In this document: in pieces, positions 7,281 through 16,858 of the stretch
Layout: each line of letters opens with the position of its first letter
How positions within the stretch are numbered: the first letter of the stretch is position 1
DNA from: an uncultured Elusimicrobia bacterium
Lineage (GTDB): Bacteria; Elusimicrobiota; Elusimicrobia; Elusimicrobiales; UBA9959
DNA: 32,148 nt
Direction of reading: 5' to 3'
Assembly (NCBI GenBank): GCA_903879915.1
Contig: CAIRNJ010000007.1
Location: forward strand, 1-32,148
The notes under the pieces: generated by a model
Told to the model about the DNA's origin: nothing
Database searches by the model: none
The model's input: only the letters and a program-made list of their open reading frames with translations
Translations under genes and position numbers: made by a program

Positions 7281-7309
7281 AGAATAGCATTTTGTCTTTA
7301 GAAGTTGAA
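7281..7309 (-). promoter_or_regulatory. Leaderless promoter of the AI-2E-type gene
   Basis: On the minus strand, TTCAAC, 17 nt spacer, TATTCT (preceded by TGC, an extended -10), then 6 nt to the ATG at 7274. A transcript would start at or adjacent to the start codon; no Shine-Dalgarno is present. Confidence 0.45.
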
Positions 7310-7322
7310 CAGCCCCGCGGGC

Positions 7323-7351
7323 TTGCGCGGCCCGGCCGCCGGCGCTATAAT
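7323..7351 (+). promoter_or_regulatory. Leaderless promoter of rtcB
   Basis: TTGCGC (-35, 7323-7328), 17-nt spacer, TATAAT (-10, 7346-7351), then exactly 7 nt to the ATG at 7359. This places the transcription start on or next to the start codon and rules out the in-frame ATG at 7305, which lies upstream of the promoter. Confidence 0.7.
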
Positions 7352-7358
7352 AGCCTTA

Positions 7359-8804
7359 ATGAACCACCCGGAGATAAAACGGCTGGACGCCTACCGGCTG
7401 GAGGTGCGGGCCGGCTACAAGTGCGGCATGCGCGCGTCCGCCATAATTTACGCCGACGAGGGGCTGGAGCGGTTCATCGAGCCCGCCGCCGTGGAGCAGG
7501 CCGCCAATACGGCCACCCTGCCCGGCCTGGCCGGCAGCGCGCTGGCCATGCCCGACATCCACACCGGCTACGGCTTCCCCATAGGCGGCGTGGCGGCTTT
7601 CAGCGCCGACGGCGGCGTTATTTCCCCCGGCGGCGTGGGCTACGACATCAACTGCGGTGTGCGCCTGCTGGCCACTTCACTGGAAATAGCGGCGCTACGG
7701 CCCAGGCTGGAAAGCCTGGCGGCCGCGCTGTACTCCCGCGTGCCGGCGGGGCTGGGCGTGGGCGGCGGCCTGCGCTTAGAGAAGCGGGAGCAGGAAGTGC
7801 CGCTGATAAAAGGCGCGGCCTGGGCCGTCGGGCGCGGGCTGGGCCGCCCCGAGGACCTGCTGTACTCGGAGTCGGGCGGCGCCATGCCCGGGGCCGATCC
7901 ACACGCCGTGGGGCATCATGCCCTGGAGCGGGGGCGCTCGCAGCTGGGCACGCTGGGGTCGGGCAACCATTTCCTGGAGATACAGGAGGTCACGGACCTT
8001 TACGACGAGGACGCGGCCCGCGTGTTCGGCCTGTTCAAAGGGCAGGTAACGCTGATGCTGCATACCGGCTCGCGCGGCCTGGGGCACCAGGTGTGCGGCG
8101 ACTATATTGAAGTCATGCGCGCTGCGGCGCAGCGCTACGGCATAAAGCTTGTCGATCCGCAGCTCGCGGCCGCGCCTTTCTCCAGCGCAGAGGGGCAGCG
8201 CTATTTCGGGGCCATGCAGGCCGCGGCCAATTACGCCTGGGCGAACAGGCAGGCGCTCACGGGGCTGGCGCGCGAAACCTTCTGCGCGGCCCTGGGCCTG
8301 GGCGAGGAGGCGCTGGCCATGCGCCTGGTCTACGACGTGGCGCACAATATCGCCAAGCTGGAGGAGCACACGGTGGACGGCAGGAAAATGAAGGTCGTAG
8401 TGCACCGCAAGGGCGCCACGCGCGCTTTCGGCCCGGGCCACCCCGAACTTCCCCCAGCCTACGCGCGCACGGGCCAGCCCGTTATCATCCCCGGGGATAT
8501 GGGCCGCTGTTCTTACCTGCTGGCCGGCACGCAAAAGGCCATGCGCGAAACTTTCGGCTCGGCCTGCCACGGCGCCGGGCGGCTGATGTCCCGGCACGAG
8601 GCGCAGCGCCGCGCCCGCGGGCGGGATATAACCGAAGAGCTTGCGGCCAAAGGCGTTTGGGTGCGCTCGGCCGGCCGCGCCACGCTGGGCGAGGAAATGC
8701 CCGAGGCCTATAAGGACGTGGACGCGGTGGTGGGCGTGGTGGCCGGGGCGGGCATCGCCCGCAAAGTGGCCAGGTTCCGGCCGCTGTGCGTGATAAAGGG
8801 CTGA
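7359..8804 (+). CDS. rtcB: RNA-splicing ligase RtcB (3'-phosphate/5'-OH RNA ligase)
   Basis: GTP- and Mn2+-dependent ligase joining RNA 3'-phosphate or cyclic phosphate ends to 5'-OH ends, used in RNA repair or tRNA splicing. 481 residues from the ATG at 7359. Metal and active-site motifs are intact: MPDIHTGYGFPIGGVAAF, SPGGVGYDINCGVR with C99, GSGNHFLEIQ, LHTGSRGLGHQ, and GSACHGAGR with the guanylylated histidine H404. A promoter with TATAAT 7 nt before the ATG fixes the start. No archease gene is adjacent. It converges with the receiver gene at 8838. Confidence 0.95.
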   Translation: MNHPEIKRLDAYRLEVRAGYKCGMRASAIIYADEGLERFIEPAAVEQAANTATLPGLAGSALAMPDIHTGYGFPIGGVAAFSADGGVISPGGVGYDINCGVRLLATSLEIAALRPRLESLAAALYSRVPAGLGVGGGLRLEKREQEVPLIKGAAWAVGRGLGRPEDLLYSESGGAMPGADPHAVGHHALERGRSQLGTLGSGNHFLEIQEVTDLYDEDAARVFGLFKGQVTLMLHTGSRGLGHQVCGDYIEVMRAAAQRYGIKLVDPQLAAAPFSSAEGQRYFGAMQAAANYAWANRQALTGLARETFCAALGLGEEALAMRLVYDVAHNIAKLEEHTVDGRKMKVVVHRKGATRAFGPGHPELPPAYARTGQPVIIPGDMGRCSYLLAGTQKAMRETFGSACHGAGRLMSRHEAQRRARGRDITEELAAKGVWVRSAGRATLGEEMPEAYKDVDAVVGVVAGAGIARKVARFRPLCVIKG

Positions 8805-8837: not shown

Positions 8838-10127
8838 TCAGGCGGCCGGCGTCAGAACAAGGCTTTCCCCGTAATCGTTGGGTTCGGCCGAAAGCGACAG
8901 CTTGATGTTCTCCGAAGGGCTGAGGACGCTGAAAGCCCCTGTCTGCCGCTTGTTCCTTTCCAGTATATCCAGGCCGCCGAGCGCTTTTAGCCGCGCCACT
9001 ACCAGGTTGCCGGTCATCCTGTTGAACCGGGTAAATTCCTTCAGGTCGCTGCCCGCGCCCGTCCGGACCAGGTAGCCGTCCACTCCCGCCTCCAGGCGGG
9101 CGGCGGCCGTTCTTTCTTCGGCCAGGAACTGCAGCAGTTTGCCCGTAAGATACTTCACGTGCGGCTCGTTGATCTCGTTCTTGACGCTTTTAGCCGCCGC
9201 CTTGAGCCGGTTCAGCGCGGTTCCCTCTATGACCATCCCGCCGGTTCCGGGTATCCTCTGCGGTTCCAGGTCGCGCTCCTCAGTCATCTTGTAAAGAACT
9301 GAAATATTCGAGGGTTCGGTTATGCCGAATTCGAAGTCGGAGCCCAGGATATTGCGTATCATCTCGTGCAGCTCGAAATTAAAAGGATGGCTTATGGCCA
9401 GGAGCGTCCGGTTTCCCGGCGTCTCCACGGCGGCTATGTTGTTCTGCATCGCGAATTTTACGGGCAGCACTCCCAGCTTTATGTCGTCCGGGTTTATTAC
9501 CGGCAGGTACGGAAGCTTCGCGAAGCCGGCCAGGAGGCGGGCCACGCGGGCTGGGGTGGTCTCCAGTATGCCGGTCAGTTTATAGATATCCGCGGGCAGC
9601 AGCGCGGTAACGCCAGCCGCCGCGGCGCCGGCCAGCTTAAAGTTGCTTATTACGTTCGTTTTGAAGTCGGCGAACCTGTAAGTCCCGCCCGCCCCGGCGG
9701 CTGGAAGGCTGTTCGCCGCCTGCGGCGGTACGGGGGCGCTCCAGACGGCTTTTTTCTCCGCGTAGCGCTTCGCGGTCTCCAGCAGCGTCGCTTTGTCGAA
9801 AGGCTTTATAAGGTAATCCATCCCGCCCGCCGCCAGGGCGCTTACTTTGTTCTGCGGCTGGGTCAGGGTGGACATGAACACTATCGGGATCTTTGCGGTC
9901 TGCGCATCCTCCTGAAGCGCCCTGGCCGCTTCGTAGCCGCTCATCCCCGGCATCATGATGTCCATGAGTATAAGGTCGGGGTCCAGTTCTTTCGCCTGGG
10001 CGATGCCTGTTCTGGGGTCCGAGGCGGAATGAACCAGAAAGCCCGCTTTGGTCAGCAGGGCGGTAAGGATCTGCGTTATCTCCACGGTGTCATCTATGCA
10101 GAGGATCTTCAGTTGGCTGGTGGTCAT
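8838..10127 (-). CDS. Response regulator fused to type II secretion/PilB N-terminal-like domains (no ATPase)
   Basis: 429 residues. The receiver (1-125) has D12-D13, phosphoacceptor D56 in LILMDIMMPG, S86 and K108 (LIKPF). After a proline/alanine linker, residues 195-282 resemble the GspE/MshE N-terminal domain (LPYLPVINPDDIK, then LLAISHPFNFELHEMI). Residues about 320-405 resemble the second N-terminal domain of PilB/GspE, with VDGYLVR and VARLKALGGLDILERNKRQTG, equivalent to the ...RiK...LDIaErR.PQdG region. The chain ends before any Walker A, so there is no motor domain. It may regulate pilus or secretion ATPases by mimicry or bind c-di-GMP; both are inference. It ends convergent to rtcB. 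Confidence 0.7.
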   Translation of the reverse strand: MTTSQLKILCIDDTVEITQILTALLTKAGFLVHSASDPRTGIAQAKELDPDLILMDIMMPGMSGYEAARALQEDAQTAKIPIVFMSTLTQPQNKVSALAAGGMDYLIKPFDKATLLETAKRYAEKKAVWSAPVPPQAANSLPAAGAGGTYRFADFKTNVISNFKLAGAAAAGVTALLPADIYKLTGILETTPARVARLLAGFAKLPYLPVINPDDIKLGVLPVKFAMQNNIAAVETPGNRTLLAISHPFNFELHEMIRNILGSDFEFGITEPSNISVLYKMTEERDLEPQRIPGTGGMVIEGTALNRLKAAAKSVKNEINEPHVKYLTGKLLQFLAEERTAAARLEAGVDGYLVRTGAGSDLKEFTRFNRMTGNLVVARLKALGGLDILERNKRQTGAFSVLSPSENIKLSLSAEPNDYGESLVLTPAA

Positions 10128-11045: not shown

Positions 11046-11474
11046 TCAGATGCCGCTGCCGCGGTTAAGGCCGCCGGCATCGCAGTCGGCCTGCTCTTGC
11101 GCGGCCAGTCGTCTTAAATGGGCTTTGGTCTTGGCCACAAGCAGGGGCAGTTCCGTGGCGTTGGACATGGCGTCGTCAGCCCCGGCCGAAAGTATCTCTA
11201 CTATTACCCTGTCCGTGGTTCTGCCCGCTTCGAACATGGCTATTACGGACAGGCCGCGCGCTATGGCCAGGAAAGCCTTCAATTCGGCCAGCTTGTCCGG
11301 CCCCAGGGCGGCCAGGTCCAGCAGTACCAGCAGGAAGTCCTGCCCGGGCCGCGCGCTGAAGTGCCGGCAGGCCGGGAGTGCCGTTGCCTGCACGCGGGCC
11401 GCGGCAAAAGCGCCCGCCGCGGCGGCCGACAGGGCGGCATTGCTCGTAATGATAAGTATCTTCAGGTCCTGCAT
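11046..11474 (-). CDS. Degenerate receiver (pseudo-receiver) protein
   Basis: 142 residues with the alternating beta-alpha pattern of a CheY-like domain: KILIITSN at the first strand, LLVLLDLAAL with D53 at the phosphoacceptor position, SVIAMFEAG and a final segment GADDAMSN...LLVAKTKAHLRRL resembling alpha5. The acidic pair that binds Mg2+ is replaced by T10-S11-N12, and the switch Thr and conserved Lys are not evident. Phosphorylation is therefore unlikely to be normal, and the domain may signal constitutively or by protein contact. It is single-domain, with a short Ala-rich insertion at 13-26. It faces away from the operon starting at 11691. Confidence 0.6.
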   Translation of the reverse strand: MQDLKILIITSNAALSAAAAGAFAAARVQATALPACRHFSARPGQDFLLVLLDLAALGPDKLAELKAFLAIARGLSVIAMFEAGRTTDRVIVEILSAGADDAMSNATELPLLVAKTKAHLRRLAAQEQADCDAGGLNRGSGI

Positions 11475-11690
11475 TGTTTTTACGTTTTCGGTGAAACGCT
11501 GAGCCTGACCGGCGCTGCAAGTAATGCTTTCTATTCTACAATATGCGCCCCGGTTTAACTACTGCCCTGTAGGCTCGTCCGCTGTTCCCCCCGCCGGCGG
11601 CGGGCGCGCGGCGGCCTTTACCCGGCGTTGGCTTTATTGGTATCCTTGAAAAGGGGAATGGAAGGGGATGGCGGTATAACAGGGAAAATA

Positions 11691-12500
11691 GTGCCAGAAC
11701 ACTGCCGGAGCAAATACACGCTTTCCGCCGCGCTGCCGGGTTGCGGGCTTATCGCCTGCCTTTTTTTTGCCGCCTGCGGCCCGCGCTACGACGACGCCGC
11801 CGAGCTGGAGCGCCAGGGCCGGGCGCTGGCGGCGGCCGCCGAGTACGGCCGTTTCGCGCTTAAGGAACCGGCCGACCCGCGCGCCCCGGAGGCGCTGCTT
11901 AAGGCCGGGCGGCTGTACGCGGAGAAGCTTTGCCTGTGCGCGCAGTCCCGTCCGCTGCTCGAGCGCCTGGTCCGGAATTATCCGGAGTTCAAGGTGCCTG
12001 AGGCGGATTTCCGGCTTATCTTCGTCTGCCCTGACTATTTCCCCTCCGGCGCCGGCCGCAGCTGGGTCTACGGCGACTCCCAGACCCTCGGCCGGAACGC
12101 CCGGCGGGAACTTTTGGTGACCGGCGCGGCCCTTTACGCCGGGGAAAAACTGGTGAGCCGCCGGCCGCTAGGCTACTATTTCTCCGGGCGCGCCTTTTAC
12201 GAGAGACAGGGCGGTTTTGATACAATTATCCTCAGCTATCCGCTGGAGAAAGGCAAGACCTGGACCTCGCGGGGGCCGGAAGGCCCGCTGGAATTCAGCG
12301 TGGAAGAGACCGGGCTCAGGGTGAAGGTGAAGGCCGGGGAATTCGCGGACTGCGTTAAAGTGCGCCGCCGCGTGCCGGGCAGGCCTTCGTGGATACTGGA
12401 CTATTACGCCCCCTGGACCGGCAAGGTGGCTACCGCTGCGGCCGGGGACGGCTACGAGCACCGGGTGATGGAGCTCCTGACCTATGACGAAAAAAAATAA
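11691..12500 (+). CDS. Lipoprotein with TPR-like N-terminal region
   Basis: 269 residues from a GTG at 11691, chosen because AGGG lies 6 nt upstream and a proper lipoprotein signal then follows: short polar start, hydrophobic run GLIACLFFAAC, with Cys as the likely lipidated residue (FAAC lipobox). Residues about 37-105 contain charged, Ala-rich helical repeats (DDAAELERQGRALAAAAEYG, APEALLKAGRLYAEKL) like BamD/TPR-type repeats. The C-terminal half is beta-rich and ends with VKAGEFADCVKVRR and LDYYAPWTGKVAT, a pattern common in uncharacterised periplasmic proteins. It overlaps the nuclease gene by 17 bp. Function is unknown; an in-frame TTG at 11628 is an alternative start. Confidence 0.65.
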   Translation: MPEHCRSKYTLSAALPGCGLIACLFFAACGPRYDDAAELERQGRALAAAAEYGRFALKEPADPRAPEALLKAGRLYAEKLCLCAQSRPLLERLVRNYPEFKVPEADFRLIFVCPDYFPSGAGRSWVYGDSQTLGRNARRELLVTGAALYAGEKLVSRRPLGYYFSGRAFYERQGGFDTIILSYPLEKGKTWTSRGPEGPLEFSVEETGLRVKVKAGEFADCVKVRRRVPGRPSWILDYYAPWTGKVATAAAGDGYEHRVMELLTYDEKK

Positions 12501-13710
12501 CCTGCCGCCCCCCGCCGGAAAAAGCGGCCTGCTGTCGTTCTCCTATTCGAAGATGTCCATGTACGAGGAGTGCCCGCTCAAGTACAAGTTCAAATACATA
12601 GACAAGCTCAAAGAGGAGCCGAAGTTCTATTTCGCGTTCGGCAACAGCGTGCACGCGGCGCTGGAATTCCTGTACTCGGTGAAAGCGCCGCCCTTCCCCT
12701 CGCTGGCCGAGGTGCTGGAGGAGTTCCGGCGCGACTGGGGGCTGAAATCCTGGGCCGAGAAAGGCTACAAGGTGCCGTCCCGCGCCGACGCGGACATGCT
12801 CAAGGGCCTGGAGATGCTCAAGGCCTATTACAACCACAACCGGGAAAAATTCAAGCCGCCCTTCCTGGTGGAGTACTCCACCGACGTGGAAGTGGACGGC
12901 CTGCTGGTGCGCATCATAGCCGACCGCATAGAGTACGTCGGGGACGGCCGCATCGAGATCATAGATTACAAGACGGGCAAGGACGTTAAGCGCTCCCCCT
13001 CCCAGCTGTATATGTACCAGAAGATCAGCGAGATCGACCCGCGCCTGAAGGAAAAGATCGCCGAGACCTACGGCGCCCGCGTGAGCTCGGTGAAGATCGA
13101 CCGCCTGCTGTATTACCACGTGCCCACTTTGAAAGAATACCCGTTCGAGCGCGCGGACGACCGCGAGATCGGCGGCTTCTGGGAGCGCGTGCTGGGCGTG
13201 GCCGAGAACATCCGCGGCCTTAAGTTCGACCCCACGCCGGGCGAGCAGCAATGCAACTGGTGCGACTATAAGAAGTTCTGTCCCATCCAGAGCGGCGTGC
13301 CGCAGGTGTGCCAGCCCGAGCTGCTGGGCACGCCCGACCCCGTGGAGGCGCTGGTGGACCGCTACGGGCGCCTTAAGGAGAAGATGGACCAGCTCAACGC
13401 GCAGCTCTCCGAGGTGGCGGCGCAGCTGGGCAGCGCGGCCGAGGCTCGCGGCACGCAGGACCTTGCCGGCGGGGAGTTCCGCGTGAAAGTAAAAAAAAGA
13501 ACGGGTTTCAGCTTCAGGGACCGGGAGGCGGTGAAAGGCGTGCTGGAGCGGTTCGAGCTTTACCAGAAGGCGCTTACGCTGACGCATACCGGCATAGCCG
13601 GGCTGCTCAAAGAGGATTCCGACATCCCGGTGGCGGCCCGCCGCGAGCTGCTGGCGCAGGCCGTCGAGAAGACCGATCTCGAGATAGAGACCTTTCCCAA
13701 GGACCGATGA
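12484..13710 (+). CDS. PD-(D/E)XK nuclease with Fe-S cluster, Cas4/AddB C-terminal-like
   Basis: 408 residues. The RecB-family nuclease core shows SFSYSKMSMYEECPLKYKF at the N-terminus, FGNSVHAALE (H57), ADRIE (D147), EIIDYKTGK (D161, K163) and QLYMYQ. Four cysteines suit the Fe-S cluster of Cas4/AddB-type nucleases: C30, then C257-x2-C260-x5-C266. It likely cleaves or processes single-stranded DNA ends. After residue 275 there is a coiled-coil segment (VDRYGRLKEKMDQLNAQLSEVA) and a charged tail not typical of Cas4. No cas genes or CRISPR array occur in the window, so a repair role is more likely. It overlaps the upstream lipoprotein by 17 bp and the downstream kinase by ATGA. Confidence 0.82.
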   Translation: MTKKNNLPPPAGKSGLLSFSYSKMSMYEECPLKYKFKYIDKLKEEPKFYFAFGNSVHAALEFLYSVKAPPFPSLAEVLEEFRRDWGLKSWAEKGYKVPSRADADMLKGLEMLKAYYNHNREKFKPPFLVEYSTDVEVDGLLVRIIADRIEYVGDGRIEIIDYKTGKDVKRSPSQLYMYQKISEIDPRLKEKIAETYGARVSSVKIDRLLYYHVPTLKEYPFERADDREIGGFWERVLGVAENIRGLKFDPTPGEQQCNWCDYKKFCPIQSGVPQVCQPELLGTPDPVEALVDRYGRLKEKMDQLNAQLSEVAAQLGSAAEARGTQDLAGGEFRVKVKKRTGFSFRDREAVKGVLERFELYQKALTLTHTGIAGLLKEDSDIPVAARRELLAQAVEKTDLEIETFPKDR

Positions 13711-15206
13711 CGGCAGAGAAATTCATAATAGTGCTGGACCAGGGCAGCTCGAGCTCCCGGGCGCTGGCTTTCGACCTCGGCGGGAATATCCGCTTCAAGG
13801 CGCAGCGCAGGCTGGAGGCGTCCTATCCGGCCCCGGGCCGCGCGGAGTACGACGCGGAAAAGCTTTTCTCCGCCCAGGCCGACAGCCTCTCCGACGTGCT
13901 GGCCCGGCTCCCGGAGGGCGCCGAGGCCGCCGCGCTGGCCATAGCGGCCCAGCGCTCCACCGTGGCGCTGTGGGACAAGAACACCGGCGCGGCGCTGTGC
14001 CCGGTGCTGAGCTGGCAGGACGGCCGCGCGCTGGAGCTGCTGGGCAAAATACCGCTTTCCAACACCCGGATACACGATCTCACCGGCCTTTACAAGACGC
14101 CGTATTACAGCGCTTCCAAGATAGCCTGGGCGCTGGAAAATTATCCCGAAGTGAAAGCCGCAGCCGCTGAGAAACGCCTGCTGGCGGCCCCGGTGGCCTC
14201 CTACATCATCTGGCGCCTGTCCGGCGGCAAGACCTTCGTCATCGACCCCTCGCAGGCGCAGCGCACGCTGCTGTTCAACCTGCGGCGGCTGAAGTGGGAG
14301 CCGGGGCTGCTGGCGGCTTTCGGCGTAAGCGCCGCCTGCCTGCCCGAAGTCCGGCCCAGCATGGGCCGCCTGGGTTCCGTGGAGGCGGCCGGGCGTAAAA
14401 TACCGGTCACGGCCATGCTGGGCGACCAGCAGGCGGCCATGCTCGGCCTGGGCCTGGAGGCGGCCGGCTCCGGCGCGCTCAACTACGGCACCGGGGCTTT
14501 CCTGCTGGTGAATACCGGCAGCGCGCCGGTAAAGATACGCGGCCTGCTCAACTCCTTCGGCTGGCAGGCCGGCCCGTCGAAAAAAGAAAGCTGCTACTTT
14601 ACCGAAAGCACTGTGAATTCCGCCGGCACCGCGCTGGAATGGCTCAGGGTCAAGTTCGGCCTGTTCGCGGACATCGGCGAGGTGGACGCCATGTGCCGCG
14701 CCTCGAAGAACCGCGTTTTCTGCCTGCCCGCCATCGGCGGCCTGGGCGCGCCTTACTGGGATTTCTCGGCGTTCACCACGTTCACCGGCTTCTCCCCCCA
14801 TACCGACAGGCACGACGTGGTGCGCGGCGTTACGGAGGGCATAGCCTACATGGTGGCCGACGCCTTCGACCTGGTGAAGAAGAAAGGCTTTAAGATAGAG
14901 GACCTGAAGGTTTCAGGCGGGCTTTCGAAGATAGACTGGCTGCTGCAGTTCCAGGCCGACATCACCGGCGCGCGCATAACCGCGCTGGCGGAGACCGAGG
15001 CCACGGCCATGGGCGCGGGCCTGGCCGCCGCGCGCGGGCTGGGCCTGGCGCCCGCCTGGAAGGCCGCGGTCTCCGGCCGGGTATTCACGCCGGGCATAGG
15101 CGAAGAGGAGCGGCAGAACCTGCTGCGCGGCTGGAGGCTGTTCGTGAAAAACACGCGCCGCGCCAGCCGCGATCTGCGCCGGCTGAACATCCTTCCCCAC
15201 AATTGA
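13707..15206 (+). CDS. FGGY-family carbohydrate kinase, glycerol-kinase-like
   Basis: ATP-dependent sugar or polyol kinase of 499 residues, normal for the family. FGGY_N (about 1-250) has the phosphate-binding LDQGSSSSRA and FGGY_C (about 255-470) has the GlpK-like NYGTGAFLLVNTG and VSGGLSKIDWLLQFQADI. GDQQAA carries the conserved catalytic Asp, and PYYSASKIAW matches the Tyr-containing substrate loop of GlpK. The position of E84 in E. coli GlpK (QRET) is Ser here (AAQRST), while the neighbouring Arg and the WQD Trp are kept, so glycerol may not be the substrate. The ATG overlaps the nuclease stop as ATGA, implying translational coupling. Xylulokinase-type activity is the main alternative. 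Confidence 0.8.
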   Translation: MTAEKFIIVLDQGSSSSRALAFDLGGNIRFKAQRRLEASYPAPGRAEYDAEKLFSAQADSLSDVLARLPEGAEAAALAIAAQRSTVALWDKNTGAALCPVLSWQDGRALELLGKIPLSNTRIHDLTGLYKTPYYSASKIAWALENYPEVKAAAAEKRLLAAPVASYIIWRLSGGKTFVIDPSQAQRTLLFNLRRLKWEPGLLAAFGVSAACLPEVRPSMGRLGSVEAAGRKIPVTAMLGDQQAAMLGLGLEAAGSGALNYGTGAFLLVNTGSAPVKIRGLLNSFGWQAGPSKKESCYFTESTVNSAGTALEWLRVKFGLFADIGEVDAMCRASKNRVFCLPAIGGLGAPYWDFSAFTTFTGFSPHTDRHDVVRGVTEGIAYMVADAFDLVKKKGFKIEDLKVSGGLSKIDWLLQFQADITGARITALAETEATAMGAGLAAARGLGLAPAWKAAVSGRVFTPGIGEEERQNLLRGWRLFVKNTRRASRDLRRLNILPHN

Positions 15207-15208
15207 AC

Positions 15209-15259
15209 GGGGTCAGGTCTTGCATTTCAACAAAATGTTGAAATGCAAGACCTGACCCC
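15209..15259. repeat. Long perfect palindrome (REP/MITE-like), 24-bp arms
   Basis: Arms at 15209-15232 and 15236-15259 are perfect inverted repeats around an AAA loop, starting GGGGTCAGGTCTTGC and ending GCAAGACCTGACCCC. It fills the gap between the convergent kinase and trxB genes. Palindromes with this type of GGTCAGGTCTTGCATTT core recur in unrelated environmental genomes and are often associated with Y1 (RAYT-type) transposases; that link is from memory. It could also act as a transcription barrier for both genes. Confidence 0.75.
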
Positions 15260-15272
15260 ATTTACCGATCCT

Positions 15273-16232
15273 TTACTTTTTGTCTTTTATTTCTTCCAGG
15301 TAGCGGCCGGCTTCCATGGAGGCGCGGCAGCCCGCGCCGGCGGCTATTATAGCCTGCTTGTAATGGCGGTCCATCACGTCCCCGGCGGCGAAGACGCCCC
15401 GCACCGAGGTCTCGCCGCGGCAGTCGGTGACAAGGTAGCCTTCCTCGTCCAGCTTAAGGCTGCCTTTGAACAGCGCCGTGGCCGGGTCGTGGCCGATGGC
15501 TATGAAAACCCCGCACAGGGGCAGTTCAGTGACCGCGCCGGTCCTGACGTTCTTAAGCCTGACGCCGGTAACCTTGGCCCCGCCCAGCACTTCTTCCAGC
15601 ACGGTATCGTAAATTATCGCTATCTTGGGATTGGCTTTGAGCTTTTCCTGCATGCGGAAACTGGCGCGCAGGGCGTCGCGGCGGTGGATCAGCCACACTT
15701 TTACGGCGAACTTGGTAAGGAACAGCGCGTCCTCGGCGGCGGTGTCCCCCCCGCCTATCACGCACAGCTCCTTGCCGCGGAAGAAGAAACCGTCGCAGGT
15801 GGCGCAGCCCGAGACGCCCTTGCCCATATATTTCCCTTCCGAAGGCAGGCCCAGCCAGCGCGCCCGCGCGCCGGTGGCCACTATCACGGAGTCGGCCGTA
15901 ACTGTTCTGCCGTCGGAAACTTTCAGGGAGAAGGGCCTGACGGCGAGGTCGGCCGCGATTATCTCGTCGGTGAACATGGCCGCGCCCAGGCGCACGGCCT
16001 GCTTCATCATGGCCTGCATCAGGTCGGCCCCCGCCACGGGCTCCGGGAAGCCGGGAAAATTCTCTATCTCCAGCGTGGCCAGCAGCTGGCCGCCGGGGAC
16101 CGTGCCGCCGAACAGGGCGGTTTTCAGCCCGCCCCGGGCGCCGTAGATGGCGGCGGTAAAGCCCGCCGGGCCGGCGCCTATTACGGCCAGGCCGTAGTGC
16201 GCGGCGGTCTGCGTGTCGTTCTTGTCGGCCAT
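15273..16232 (-). CDS. trxB: Thioredoxin reductase
   Basis: NADPH- and FAD-dependent reductase of thioredoxin in the cytoplasm, 319 residues as expected. FAD-binding GAGPAGFTAAIYGAR (about 19-33) is followed by the redox-active C143-A-T-C146 in SGCATCDGFFF, the NADPH-binding GGGDTAAEDA with HRRD, and the C-terminal FAD motif GVFAAGDVMD. It is the last gene of cutA-DUF4321-maf-trxB, 38 nt after maf. GAGGAAAAT precedes the ATG at 16232. The 24-bp-arm palindrome lies just past its stop. Confidence 0.95.
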   Translation of the reverse strand: MADKNDTQTAAHYGLAVIGAGPAGFTAAIYGARGGLKTALFGGTVPGGQLLATLEIENFPGFPEPVAGADLMQAMMKQAVRLGAAMFTDEIIAADLAVRPFSLKVSDGRTVTADSVIVATGARARWLGLPSEGKYMGKGVSGCATCDGFFFRGKELCVIGGGDTAAEDALFLTKFAVKVWLIHRRDALRASFRMQEKLKANPKIAIIYDTVLEEVLGGAKVTGVRLKNVRTGAVTELPLCGVFIAIGHDPATALFKGSLKLDEEGYLVTDCRGETSVRGVFAAGDVMDRHYKQAIIAAGAGCRASMEAGRYLEEIKDKK

Positions 16233-16270
16233 GTTATTTTCCTCGCTGCCGCAGGCTGGTGTTCAAGGGC

Positions 16271-16858
16271 TCAGGCTTTTACCCCGGCCTTCTTTAAAAA
16301 TTTTCGTACCAGGTTCATGGACAGGCCGACCACCGTGTCGAAGCGGCCTTCTATCTTTTCCACGAACTCGTCGTCCTTGTCCTGCACGGCGTAGGCGCCG
16401 GCCTTGTCGTGGTGCTTGGTGCAGAGGTTCTTAAGCTCGGCTTCGCTCAGGCGCCGGGCCTTGCAGCGGGAGACTTCCGCGCCGGCCAGGAAGAGGCCTT
16501 TCTCCAGCCAGATCAGCGCTACGCCGGTGTGCACGGCCTGCCAGGAGCCGTTCTGCAGGCGCAGCAGGCGCAGGGCGTCCTTCGCGTGCGCGGGCTTGCC
16601 CAGTATCTCGCCCTTGCAGTAGACCAGCGTGTCGGAGCCCAGCACGGGGGCGCCGGGATATTTCAGCGCCACGCTCAGCGCTTTTTTATAGGCCAGCTCC
16701 CGCACTATCAGGGCGGGGCGCCGGTAGGAGGAAATTTCTTTTATGCGGCTGGGGATCACCCGGTGCCGTATGCCGGCCTGCGTGAGCAGTTCTACGCGCC
16801 TGGGGGAGCGCGAGGCGAGGATGAGCTCAGGCTTCGACCGCGCGGTCCGGGCGGTCAT
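16271..16858 (-). CDS. maf: Maf family nucleotide pyrophosphatase
   Basis: Hydrolyses non-canonical or canonical nucleoside triphosphates (dTTP/UTP or m7GTP depending on subtype), 195 residues. Family motifs are ILASRSPRR at the N-terminus, GSDTLV with the catalytic Asp, KP in ILGKPAHAKDA, DKAGAYAVQDKD and the terminal VVGLSMNLV (usually VGLP). The subtype is not assigned. The start overlaps the DUF4321 stop by 4 bp. Confidence 0.9.
   Translation of the reverse strand: MTARTARSKPELILASRSPRRVELLTQAGIRHRVIPSRIKEISSYRRPALIVRELAYKKALSVALKYPGAPVLGSDTLVYCKGEILGKPAHAKDALRLLRLQNGSWQAVHTGVALIWLEKGLFLAGAEVSRCKARRLSEAELKNLCTKHHDKAGAYAVQDKDDEFVEKIEGRFDTVVGLSMNLVRKFLKKAGVKA

Follow-up and report, generated by a model that had tools for sequence, protein, structure and literature searches.

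The window (the whole stretch of 32,148 nucleotides analysed here, from an uncultured Elusimicrobia bacterium) carries a gene for a 429-residue response regulator whose receiver is joined to the N1 (MshEN) and N2 domains of pilus and secretion ATPases, and which ends before the ATPase domain. On sequence comparison, this short form is derived from a family of receiver-fused pilus ATPases (the long form). Rather than a motor, it is probably a regulator that can be switched and that acts on pilus machinery.

Domain architecture and the end of the chain

The gene occupies 8838..10127 on the minus strand (a strand that the initial annotation did not give), with the ATG at 10127 and the stop at 8838-8840, and its translation of 429 aa has orthologues of similar length in five other species. 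Residues 8-118 (9774..10106, minus) form the receiver (Pfam Response_reg, E = 1.6e-26). The acidic pair (D12, D13), the phospho-acceptor D56, S86 at the Ser/Thr position and K108 are all present, in agreement with the intact receiver first read from the letters, and these active-site columns are invariant across the short forms. Elsewhere in the window, a 142-aa ORF (11046-11474, minus) looks by eye like a degenerate receiver without the acidic pair; it has no Pfam match.

The receiver is followed by a helical N1-like segment, the equivalent of ND0/MshEN_N (residues 150-205; 9513..9680, minus), with helices in the models and a negative scan for the c-di-GMP motif. The MshEN_C/ND1 alpha-beta subdomain (residues 210-278; 9294..9500, minus) scores 28.6 bits against a Pfam cut-off of 23.1 and lies in the region of the short form with the highest identity. 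As a whole, the N1/MshEN region is degenerate. The PilB/GspE N2 domain (residues 322-426; 8850..9164, minus), with its catalytic-interface residues lost, contains RLKALGGLDILER (residues 379-391 of the 429-aa protein). Residues 360-425 match positions 44-109 of the 370 in the T2SSE profile, at 15.6 bits, below the cut-off in the window copy; the same N-terminal match is above the cut-off in four other short forms (63.8 bits in G326, 32.5 in G023, 30.0 in G154 and 26.3 in G021).

The non-receiver halves, from short and long forms together, were made into a profile and compared with the PDB. This profile matches PilB (6olj, 5tsg; E = 9e-25) and GspE (E = 9e-20), with alignments that reach the end of N2. 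Matches to the PDB "Response regulator" entries 7pvk/7pv7 (E = 0.008; 7pvk is cited in a paper on the T9SS regulator PorX) are isolated and weak and were treated as chance. AlphaFold models were made from shallow trimmed alignments and are of modest confidence, with a mean pLDDT of 55 for the whole chain, 68 for the non-receiver half and about 72-87 for the N2 part. With Foldseek, the N2 part falls on PilB at 1.6-1.8 Å over about 105 columns. The N-domains of MshE, XpsE and PilB come lower in the Foldseek list, and the MshEN superposition is poor (>10 Å over the aligned length). The assignment of an MshEN/GspE_N-like domain and of a second N-terminal domain, both as in T2SSE ATPases, is upheld by Pfam, the PDB profile and the fold search taken together.

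The chain ends at the N2/ATPase hinge, before any ATPase domain. Walker A and Walker B, the ASP and HIS boxes, the catalytic glutamate and the four-Cys motif are all absent from the 429-aa protein, as had been noted for the Walker motifs. Such an end is what a truncated pseudogene or an assembly error of a full ATPase, peculiar to this genome, would give. However, a complete convergent rtcB (7305..8804, plus; Pfam RtcB, full length, E = 1.6e-166) lies directly downstream, which rules out a Walker-containing remainder of the gene, no frame of the window matches the ATPase domain of the long form, and the identical end point recurs in the five other species. The probability of such an artefact is practically nil. 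A frameshift with a lost ATPase remainder, named in the initial annotation as an outcome that would overturn it, is rejected on the same two grounds, the adjoining rtcB and a window free of ATPase matches.

A parent family of receiver-fused pilus ATPases

The long family has the order REC-MshEN-N2-ATPase-REC over about 860 aa and occurs in two phyla, with one member in the window's own genome. That member, an open frame of 967 aa (about 875 aa from its ATG), is 33% identical to the short form over residues 7-425 and has Walker A, a complete T2SSE ATPase (E = 1.1e-105) and two receivers. A reading of this frame as a hybrid kinase was wrong; it is an ATPase with two receivers. At least 14 of the examined Elusimicrobiota genomes have a long form, as do about 3% of the 345 genomes sampled from the G352 phylum (Desulfobacterota or a near relative), mostly at 36-41% identity. 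Among 345 sampled genomes of the G352/G341 phylum no short form was found, and full-length matches had long frames (the two genome samples are near-identical). A search for relatives with the whole protein returned mostly receiver-only proteins. In L176 and L177 the Walker A pattern was missed; read by eye, they have AAPTGSGKTT and look active.

The long forms (L117, L118 and L120-L122 in Elusimicrobiota; L215-L222 in Desulfobacterota) share with the short form the order receiver, MshEN, N2. The nearest ones are about 30-36% identical across the whole short form, and the c-di-GMP motif is absent there too where tested. Unlike the short form, they have an intact T2SSE ATPase (Walker A, arginine fingers, four-Cys), usually a second receiver and often an adjacent pilin-like gene. 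At six of nine Desulfobacterota loci (L215-L219, L222) and at two Elusimicrobiota loci (L118, L120), a pilin-like gene is no more than about 700 bp from the long form; none other was seen in the scanned long-form loci, save a second one beside the first in L216. The type IV pilin-like N-terminus was found by a regular expression, the results of which are suggestive and not exhaustive. This neighbourhood suggests that the parent family is pilus-linked.

A tree was computed for the MshEN-N2 part, with four ordinary PilB as the root. In it, six short forms make a clade (100/100) with a stem of 0.95 changes per column, inside the receiver-ATPase family, itself split from ordinary PilB at 100/100. 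The placement of this clade as sister to the local long forms is weak (83/65). A distant short form with REC-MshEN-N2 (G326, L173:6447-7814) occurs in another part of the phylum; it keeps ASDIRIEP, with H replaced by R, and a hybrid histidine kinase gene lies two genes away. Its grouping with a long form (90/84) suggests that the short form arose a second time; a single origin is not rejected (p-AU 0.129).

G343 and G352, genomes of a Caldithrix and a deltaproteobacterium, each have a single-domain receiver gene with a PilB-type ATPase gene behind it in the same frame, after a TAG (L201, about 1468-2700; L202, about 698-1957). In G068, a long-form gene (L179:8115-10802) is broken by an in-frame TAA within N2, and a second, unbroken copy is present in the genome. 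The broken copy is possibly an early step toward the short form, or an assembly error.

Conservation and residues lost

Intact short forms with a shared end point are present in six species of two genera. Identities to the window copy are 67% (G021), 67% (G154), 64% (G155), 60% (G016) and 55% (G023). The distribution is patchy, with 4 of the 32 species of the genus having the gene, and in G003 there is an internally deleted remnant with the short-form C-terminus still in place. The window, G016 and G021 have a common gene neighbourhood (window 11628-16858, including an FGGY kinase), and this conserved synteny in three species indicates vertical keeping. Pairwise mean dN is 0.22-0.43 vs. a dS of 0.85-1.24 across the domains (rough estimates, since dS is near or above 1), and every domain of the short form is under purifying selection.

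Could the short form be what remains of a receiver-fused ATPase in decay, largely or wholly without function? The long tree stem, the presence in so few species of the genus, the G003 remnant and the in-frame stop inside N2 of the G068 long copy would all fit. Against this, the gene is intact in six species of two genera, dN stays well under dS in each domain, the receiver active site is invariant, and the C-terminal end and the synteny are conserved; we regard decay as quite unlikely.

The distribution of identity between regions differs in the two forms. In the short form, MshEN is at 68%, REC at 66% and N2 at 62%; in the long form, N2 is at 76%, the ATPase at 75% and MshEN at 57%. MshEN is thus the most conserved region in the short form and the least in the long one: constraint has shifted onto MshEN and away from the catalytic half.

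In PilB of G. metallireducens, R271 and R286 of N2 touch the ASP-box glutamate and the nucleotide phosphates in the neighbouring unit (PMC5424180). In the window protein, the place of the first arginine finger (R271) is taken by Ser411 (8895..8897, minus), where 27 of 27 long-form and PilB rows have R and all seven short rows have lost it, and, from the sequences, the place of the second (R286) is taken by Thr426 (8850..8852, minus), three residues before the C-terminal Ala429. We infer these two equivalences from position and from the 15-residue spacing. No short form has Arg at 411 or 426, and, with the arginine fingers lost, the remaining N2 could hardly serve catalysis. Residues S341, D342, H344, R357, D359 and R411 do not vary in the 27 long-form and PilB rows, and most or all seven short forms have a change there (H344 is Arg in every one); the SDIH and DG motifs are lost in the short form. 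Residues E346, R379, K381, Q395, G397, G420 and E421 are retained in 7/7 short forms. These kept residues are of the fold type, and N2 looks folded.

The N-terminal region had also been associated with c-di-GMP. The motif RLGxx..G....L...L..Q (24 residues, in the relaxed form, PMC5013675), scanned as a regular expression, occurs in no short or long member scanned, whereas two of the four ordinary PilB of the window's genome (L126, L128) have one each. The MshEN domain of a c-di-GMP receptor is therefore present without its two motifs, and binding of the nucleotide by this family is not supported. A c-di-GMP-responsive regulator like Bd2402 of Bdellovibrio, with MshEN as the nucleotide sensor, could call on the MshEN match above the Pfam cut-off and on the binding that is possible even with imperfect motifs (PMC5013675). 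With neither motif present in any member, even relaxed, and a match in two of the four ordinary PilB of the same genome, such a sensor is very unlikely.

Genomic context and proposed role

The gene of the window lies outside any pil operon, as do the short-form genes of most genomes, and no T2SSF/PilC genes lie near the intact copies. A T2SSE-type ATPase is found within about 10 kb of three of the seven copies or remnants (counted after seeing the data): in G023 a long form about 3 kb off, in G154 a T2SSE ATPase at about 4.4 kb, and pilB at about 9 kb from the G003 remnant. For the other copies, no such ATPase occurs within 10 kb on the same contig. The linkage of homologues to pil genes, suggested earlier as a check, is therefore weak; the opposite statement, that there is no pilus linkage at all, is rejected in view of the three cases. 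The G003 remnant itself (L125:5603-5857) is situated between ComEC-like and glnS-like genes (named by eye), and the gene 9 kb away is the main pilB.

In every genome examined T2SSF, T2SSE and PilZ genes are present, so possible targets exist. Of the six genomes that have an intact short form, three also have the long form, and in the other three no long form was detected; the long form is thus a possible partner, neither obligate nor the only one. Among the ORFs scanned, no kinase was recognised directly beside the short-form gene. Upstream of the long paralogue in G000 there is a PAS-HK-REC-REC gene, and a homologous ORF is found at the same place in G002.

With modest confidence, we favour for the short form the role of a phospho-controlled adaptor or decoy, made from a catalytically dead, shortened paralogue of the receiver-ATPases and acting at a machine of the type IV pilus type. 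A histidine kinase would phosphorylate Asp56 and thereby alter the docking of the MshEN/N2 half on that machine. Docking could occur through the ND1 surface, or with N2 placed on the ATPase domain of a motor subunit. Both contacts have precedents: ND0/ND1 of PilB binds the regulator PilZ, in a PilB without the c-di-GMP motif (PMC8389850), and in the PilB ring each N2 is packed against the ATPase domain of the adjoining chain (PMC5424180). The short form would then compete with the real motor or cap it, as a phospho-switched part and not an engine. The idea of the initial annotation, that ATPase regions were reused as the output of a phosphorylation switch, gains from the parental REC-MshEN-N2-ATPase-REC family and loses its c-di-GMP component; control of the pilus machine by competition for partners is plausible.

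A narrower version, which we hold to be improbable, sees the protein as a dead subunit under phospho-control, whose N2 (and N1) would enter the ring of the receiver-fused motor and block it, the motor gene having been cut at the N2/ATPase hinge, possibly twice in Elusimicrobiota (in the six-species clade and in G326).

Motor ancestry may also be uninformative on the present partner. The protein would then be a response regulator whose MshEN half binds a target outside pili and secretion. Most copies of the gene stand alone, with no pil genes beside them, N2 identity is lower in the short form (62% vs. 76%), and MshEN domains occur in many non-pilus proteins (PMC5013675). But N2 retains its fold-type residues and is still under purifying selection, the nearest relatives are receiver-fused ATPases that are often pilin-linked, and T2SSF and T2SSE genes accompany the short form in all genomes examined; we consider such a target somewhat unlikely.

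The route from two-component signalling to pilus motors is largely unknown, and, according to a review, no interaction of the response regulators PilG/PilH with PilB has been reported (PMC11656802). In the family described above, motor and receiver are parts of one protein, and one branch has dropped the engine but retained the receiver and the docking half. The adaptor or decoy role would link phosphorylation to motor control directly and in a way open to test, with a regulator made from the machine that it probably regulates. The receiver-fused ATPases occur more widely than the short form, and a separate study of them may be worthwhile. What is new here is the origin of the short form within that family, REC-MshEN regulators as such being known. 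For a receiver-MshEN-N2 protein that descends from receiver-fused pilus ATPases, no prior description was found, which is weak evidence, as the subscription literature was mostly outside the search.

Among known systems, CpiA and the phage-encoded inhibitors of PilB (PMC11656802) are similar in their possible role, as protein inhibitors of a pilus extension motor; they are peptides or small proteins and, according to that review, neither motor-derived nor phospho-switched. Bd2402 of Bdellovibrio bacteriovorus and other REC-MshEN proteins are likewise two-component response regulators with MshEN, and fusions of MshEN with a receiver were thus already known (PMC5013675). Bd2402, compared here on REC and MshEN only, binds c-di-GMP tightly, whereas the window protein lacks the motif. 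With the ATPases PilB, GspE and MshE (PDB 6olj, 5tsg, 4pht, 5htl) the window protein has N1 (MshEN) and N2 in common (profile E down to 9e-25); it differs from them in having neither the ATPase domain nor the arginine fingers, and in the added receiver.
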